A DNA stretch of 38,717 nucleotides from Calditrichota bacterium. Lineage in GTDB: Bacteria; Calditrichota; Calditrichia; RBG-13-44-9; J075. The stretch lies in NCBI GenBank assembly GCA_020434205.1, contig JAGRBF010000005.1, positions 1-38,717 on the forward strand. Reading direction: 5' to 3'. Below the pieces are notes generated by a model, which had not been told where the DNA came from, made no database searches, and saw nothing but the letters and a program-made list of their open reading frames with translations. The position numbers were made by a program, and so were the translations under genes. Shown piece after piece: positions 1-1,349 of this stretch; position 1 is the first letter of the stretch; every line of letters starts with the position of its first letter.

Positions 1-1094
<1,094 letters not shown>

Positions 1095-1137: not shown

Positions 1138-1169
1138 AAAAAAGCCCCTCAGGTGGTCGTGAAGGGCTT
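1138..1169 (-). terminator. Strong intrinsic terminator upstream of the SAM riboswitch
   Basis: On the minus strand AAGCCCTTCA pairs with TGAGGGGCTT (10 bp, one G-U) around the 8-nt loop CGACCACC, followed by six T. It ends about 45 nt before the riboswitch P1. No protein gene is visible upstream on this strand, so it terminates the short unit that starts at the promoter at 1321-1349. Confidence 0.75.
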
Positions 1170-1314
1170 CGTTTGTGTTCTTTTTCAGATGCACCCTCAG
1201 ACTTGCCGGCAAGCCATCATACAGCAACAGCACATCCACATCATGCTGGGTTGGTGGCCGGAAATCTGATCGGTGGTGAAACGCATTGTTTGTCCTGGCG
1301 TTGAATATTTCTAC
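1138..1314 (-). ncRNA. Candidate small RNA or first of two tandem leaders before metY
   Basis: This segment of about 177 nt lies between a consensus-like promoter (1321-1349) and a strong terminator (1138-1169) on the minus strand. It can form internal hairpins, such as CAGCAT pairing with ATGTGCTG and the self-complementary CTTGCCGGCAAG. An open frame of 68 codons runs through it. That frame starts with TTG, lacks a ribosome site and reads through the terminator, so coding is unlikely. It could be a free small RNA or an attenuator stacked in front of the SAM riboswitch. I do not recognise a known RNA family. Confidence 0.45.
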
Positions 1315-1320
1315 AGGCAA

Positions 1321-1349
1321 AACATAATACGGGTTTTCGGGTTTGTCAA
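1321..1349 (-). promoter_or_regulatory. Sigma70-like promoter, minus strand
   Basis: TTGACA (1349-1344) is separated by exactly 17 nt from TATGTT (1326-1321). Expected start of transcription is near 1314. It points toward the terminator at 1138-1169 and, on readthrough, the SAM riboswitch and metY. I found no comparably good promoter between that terminator and the riboswitch. Confidence 0.6.

Follow-up and report, generated by a model that had tools for sequence, protein, structure and literature searches.

What purpose would a complete promoter-terminator unit serve when it is stacked in front of a gene that already carries a SAM-I riboswitch? The question arises at the beginning of a 38,717-nucleotide stretch of a Calditrichota contig (hereafter the window), where segment 1349-1138 of the minus strand precedes the riboswitch of metY. 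A preliminary description of this DNA, drawn from its letters, had offered two readings, namely an unannotated small RNA, or control of metY by two serial terminators with an unknown signal acting at the first. We conclude that the segment is very probably a classical ribosome-mediated attenuator with a Met/Cys leader, placed in series before SAM-I, with metY integrating two signals.

Arrangement of the metY upstream region

The elements of the region are listed in Table 1; on the minus strand the promoter is followed by terminator 1, the SAM-I aptamer, a second terminator and metY. The promoter, the terminator with six T and the SAM riboswitch about 45 nt farther on had all been described beforehand on the metY strand and were recovered here, the terminator stem being counted as 11 pairs where 10 bp had been given. 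In agreement with the earlier claim that no good promoter separates the two units, no promoter-like site was found in the gap of ~45 nt between terminator 1 and the riboswitch. Both units lie in series on the same strand and would be read as a single transcript. By pattern alone, 3.6 kb contained 2 promoter-like sites (1.5 expected) and 5 terminator-like sites (6.0 expected). Since neither count beats shuffles, these were not used as evidence; the promoter and terminator 1 are credible because they are conserved in relatives. TTGACA and TA---T are also found directly 5′ of the leader ORF described below in loci L034, L035, L036 and L063, and terminator 1 has a counterpart at the equivalent place in relatives.

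Table 1. Features of the metY upstream region in the window.
Feature	Position	Strand	Remarks
Sigma-70-type promoter, TTGACA-N17-TATGTT	1349-1321	-	10/12 consensus matches; arrangement repeated in relatives
Shine-Dalgarno-like AGGA	1296-1293	-	6 nt before leader ATG; from sequence
Leader peptide ORF MRFTTDQISGHQPSMMWMCCCCMMACRQV	1286-1197	-	29 codons + stop; unannotated; functional equivalents in 12 other metY units
Region 1	1275-1257	-	Pairs with 1210-1192 in minimum-energy fold of untranslated transcript; predicted, window only
Control codons	1244-1209	-	5 Met + 5 Cys within codons 15-26; from sequence
Region 2, antiterminator strand GUCUGAGGGUGC	1202-1191	-	Includes leader stop codon 1199-1197; equivalents covary in 13 units
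Region 3, GCCCUUCACGAC	1167-1156	-	5′ arm of terminator 1; alternatively pairs with region 2
Intrinsic terminator 1	1170-1138	-	11-bp stem 1170-1141 (5 G-C), then T6 1143-1138
SAM-I (S-box) riboswitch aptamer	1094-981	-	Rfam RF00162, 84.7 bits (gathering 44.4)
Intrinsic terminator 2 (SAM-I expression platform)	955-924	-	From sequence and fold
metY, O-acetylhomoserine sulfhydrylase	1-871	-	ATG at 871; cut by contig end; TIGR01326 E 4e-134 (fragment)

An Rfam scan over 1349-1138 returned no known family; the T-box family gave no match on the leader, and SAM was the only family returned by the scan of the window. The riboswitch is, by its Rfam match, an ordinary member of SAM-I, and it is the only one in this assembly (90% complete). 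The 3′ strand of P1 offers the 5′ arm of terminator 2 an alternative partner (antiterminator fold z -4.3). The metY fragment scores below the full-length cut-off of TIGR01326 because the gene is truncated at the contig edge. Elsewhere in the window, degenerate ATGGTT repeats and their complement AACCAT, which can form hairpins, lie at 1511-1620 before a histidine kinase gene.

A leader ORF rich in Met and Cys codons

The decisive feature, absent from the preliminary description, is a short ORF between the promoter and terminator 1, whose ATG lies ~28 nt past the likely start of transcription. The best 10 codons of this ORF include 9 Met+Cys; the intergenic region, dinucleotide-shuffled 3000 times, reaches at most 5, and the other short ORFs of the window at most 4. 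Such an enrichment fits the regulated pathway, in which metY makes homocysteine for Met.

Distribution of the leader upstream of metY

Searches for metY covered 40 genomes of the window's class and, as the wider sample, a scan in which each species was represented by one genome (the class of G092 holding one metY only), and SAM-I was searched for in the relatives. Met/Cys-rich short ORFs were defined as those with at least 5 Met+Cys in 10 codons, within 600 nt upstream of metY. They were found at 33/79 loci outside the class and 6/19 inside it, while the controls yielded 0/79 on reverse strands, 1/395 in shuffles and 0/76 in other segments. Thirteen units at metY combine leader and terminator in a common layout, within the window's class and in Ignavibacteria/Bacteroidetes MAGs; the loci outside the class belong to Melioribacter, Ignavibacteria and one Bacteroidetes MAG. 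The full order of leader, terminator, SAM-I, terminator and metY is present in 6 loci: the window itself (L033), L035 (genome G021), L036 (G031), L050 (G010), L065 (an Ignavibacteria MAG) and L075 (the Bacteroidetes MAG). Loci L034 (G002) and L063 (Melioribacter) have no SAM-I; a Met/Cys leader with its terminator occurs there twice in succession before metY. The closest relatives differ, G002 being a member of the window's own family. Most of the window's class has SAM-I and no leader, and in these leaderless relatives the riboswitch unit directly follows a TTGACA promoter, which suggests that the attenuator is a module set between these two elements. Also in the window's family, two tandem SAM-I riboswitches were seen before a gene whose start resembles metX (G002:C45:58175-58534).

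Mutually exclusive helices at terminator 1

The 5′ arm of terminator 1 has an alternative partner in a strand that overlaps the leader stop codon (regions 3 and 2, respectively). In the window the GUCUGAGGGUGC:GCCCUUCACGAC pairing has a dG of -14.9 as a duplex and -12.6 when folded, and its register is shifted by one base relative to relatives. Over the 13 units, 17 cells of this 2:3 (antiterminator) helix changed on both sides, a count that 0/500 shuffles attained, and 11 cells did so in the 3:4 (terminator) helix (7/500 shuffles). The region 2 blocks for this count were hand-cut around the best complementarity. A comparison of region 2:3 complementarity with shuffled tails is the fairer test, since the shuffles are given the same freedom; here the combined p for the 13 units was 3e-15, and that for the window alone was 0.04, only moderately beyond chance. 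Alignment in related genomes with covariance analysis had been suggested at the outset as a check, and it revealed a layout kept in the 13 units together with a covarying antiterminator helix.

The spacing is equally regular. From the last codon of the Met/Cys run to region 2 there are 12-20 nt in 13/13 units, and 15 nt in the window; 12-20 nt is the distance from the A site of a ribosome to its leading edge. A ribosome placed within the run leaves region 2 free; one that has moved beyond the run covers it, and the predicted 2:3 pairing then falls to zero. The window thus has an antiterminator that excludes the terminator, that is free at the predicted stall and that is masked at the stop codon. 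At about -12.6 kcal/mol, compared with -16 to -19 kcal/mol for the terminator, this antiterminator is the less stable of the two, and to prevail it would have to form before its competitor, as happens in known attenuators. In the fold predicted for the untranslated transcript of the window, pairing by region 1 would sequester region 2 and favour termination without translation, much as region 1 does in trp-type attenuators. Every feature of a leader-peptide attenuator that can be tested on sequence was found, namely a codon-enriched ORF, a terminator between ORF and gene, and an exclusive antiterminator; from these we infer translation and stalling.

With these data the first of the two original readings can be weighed. 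If the segment were a small RNA gene in its own right, closed by the terminator, with metY under SAM-I alone and another promoter, this would account for a defined transcript of ~175 nt with its own promoter and terminator, and attenuated trp leaders act in trans in other bacteria (rnTrpL, as cited in PMC9373788). However, the stretch that separates terminator 1 from SAM-I holds nothing promoter-like, leaderless relatives have their TTGACA promoter directly before SAM-I, and a small RNA needs neither a conserved Met/Cys ORF nor an alternative helix, always before metY. We consider this reading very unlikely. What may survive of it is the attenuated transcript of ~175 nt as a possible by-product; the conserved ORF and its position before metY it leaves unexplained.

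Putative attenuators at other genes of the class

A covariance model was built from region 2, the spacer and the terminator of metY units only, and run over the class. Most weak matches of this region 2-terminator model (R2) were ordinary terminators at the 3′ ends of genes and were discarded. The model also recovers leaders whose codons match the downstream gene. In the window's own genome an Ile/Leu/Val-rich leader, MIRISQLILSIILISILVLISSERE, precedes ilvD (L178, G000:C652:4239-4315); its region 2 includes the stop codon and is complementary to region 3 (p 0.001), and a terminator lies before ilvD. Judged by these features, L178 is a classical ilv attenuator. Class-mates (G019, G031) contributed L179, where a His-rich leader precedes hisG (2:3 pairing p 0.011), L151, where a leader rich in Lys stands ahead of a homocitrate/isopropylmalate synthase family gene, and L154, where a Thr/Met/Asn leader is followed by an aspartokinase gene. 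Moreover, Met/Cys leaders with terminators precede an O-succinylhomoserine sulfhydrylase-like gene in G021 and G031 (L183 and L184), and this gene is a predicted second target of the Met/Cys leader kind. In L151, L154, L183 and L184 the 2:3 pairing did not reach significance. Going by these sequences, leader-peptide attenuation looks like the house style of the window's class, which puts the interpretation of the metY leader on much firmer ground.

These leaders also bear on whether the ORF might encode a genuine short Met/Cys-rich protein with a function of its own, for example in metal or redox binding, that merely happens to lie upstream. Cys-rich peptides are able to bind metals, and the next gene, on the other strand, encodes a sensor kinase that, among protein families, best matches the heavy-metal sensor kinases. 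However, the sequence of the leader peptide is not conserved; what is conserved is its Met/Cys content, its position and its spacing to the terminator, and in the other attenuators of the class the codons fit their own pathways. A separate protein function is therefore extremely improbable.

Proposed mechanism

The codons of the ORF, the antiterminator strand and the conserved geometry support the second of the original readings, in which metY stands under two serial terminators and the first answers to a separate signal. They point to aminoacylation of tRNA-Met and tRNA-Cys, sensed by the translating ribosome, as the signal that the preliminary description had left unknown. We propose that transcription would start at ~1314 and that the leader ORF would be translated while emerging. 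A shortage of charged tRNA-Met or tRNA-Cys would stall the ribosome in codons 15-24; region 2 would then pair with region 3, terminator 1 would be blocked and the polymerase would continue into the SAM-I riboswitch. When both charged tRNAs are plentiful, the ribosome would reach the stop codon and cover region 2, and terminator 1 would form. A polymerase that had passed terminator 1 would still be stopped at terminator 2 if SAM were bound. Transcription would thus reach metY only under low SAM combined with low Met/Cys-tRNA charging.

A reversed order in Bacteroidota

In Bacteroidota (Pontibacter, Chryseolinea, Pedobacter and others) the order upstream of metY is reversed, with SAM-I first (L091, L093, L095, L097, L108, L110, L121, L128, L129, L132, L135, L140 and L141). 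A short leader ORF follows, its ATG mostly 6-9 nt past the 3′ end of the riboswitch, and the majority of these ORFs finish with a poly-Cys run ~70-130 nt upstream of metY. No clear terminator was seen between the poly-Cys leader and metY in these loci. This close spacing suggests that SAM-I in Bacteroidota probably gates translation of the leader peptide.

The missing terminator raises the possibility that in the window, too, the leader acts by another route, such as Rho-dependent termination or translational coupling, and that terminator 1 is constitutive. The mycobacterial cys leaders likewise have no terminators (PMC1262725). However, the window and its 12 counterparts have an intrinsic terminator with a covarying antiterminator at fixed spacing, and we regard such a route as highly improbable here. 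It seems reasonably likely that metY is widely controlled by Met/Cys leaders and SAM-I together, in Ignavibacteria and Bacteroidota as well as in the window's class, and that this system has two architectures. In one, a leader attenuator is followed by SAM-I, with serial terminators and AND logic; in the other, SAM-I lies 6-9 nt ahead of the poly-Cys leader's start codon, with SAM gating leader translation.

Relation to known systems

The closest parallel is with T-box(Met)/SAM-I tandems, which likewise place a sensor of tRNA-Met charging in series with SAM-I, with separate expression platforms and two-input logic; these occur in either order, and some precede metX and metY. Here the tRNA sensor would instead be a translated leader peptide that reads Cys too, and the leader version is found in Gram-negative lineages (the window's class, Ignavibacteria and Bacteroidota). 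With the classical trp, his and ilv attenuators the unit shares control codons, alternative 2:3 and 3:4 helices, an intrinsic terminator and a stop codon at which the ribosome sits on region 2; it differs in mixing Met with Cys codons and in sharing one 5′ leader with a riboswitch that lies downstream of it. The SAM-I half (RF00162) is ordinary, and the difference lies in its tandem partner. A 2014 study of sulfur-metabolism gene regulation by Lyubetsky et al. reportedly concerns Cys leader peptides.

Runs of Cys codons in short ORFs, sensing Cys-tRNA, are shared with the poly-Cys leader peptides of actinobacterial cys/cbs genes, which have no terminators (PMC1262725), and with uORFC-8-2, a Cys-codon leader at Rhodobacterales cysS (PMC8632094); work on mycobacterial Cys leaders is also cited in PMC13236596 (Canestrari 2020). 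Those leaders belong to other genes and taxa, with no Met codons described and no riboswitch partner. A search of open-access literature brought up no case of a leader peptide combined with a SAM riboswitch, and with this scope the novelty of the tandem is provisional.

Implications

Ribosome-mediated attenuation is, to our knowledge, the oldest known RNA switch. Its union with a metabolite riboswitch in one 5′ leader would make a natural two-input gate. Since a T-box version of the same logic exists in other bacteria, the analogy suggests that the combination of tRNA-Met charging with SAM was invented more than once. Unannotated leader genes may be located by a rule of spacing, with an antiterminator strand 12-20 nt beyond a run of Met and Cys codons. 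Lastly, the Bacteroidota arrangement, if real, would be a riboswitch acting on a leader peptide, and it occurs in cultured species such as those of Pontibacter and Pedobacter.
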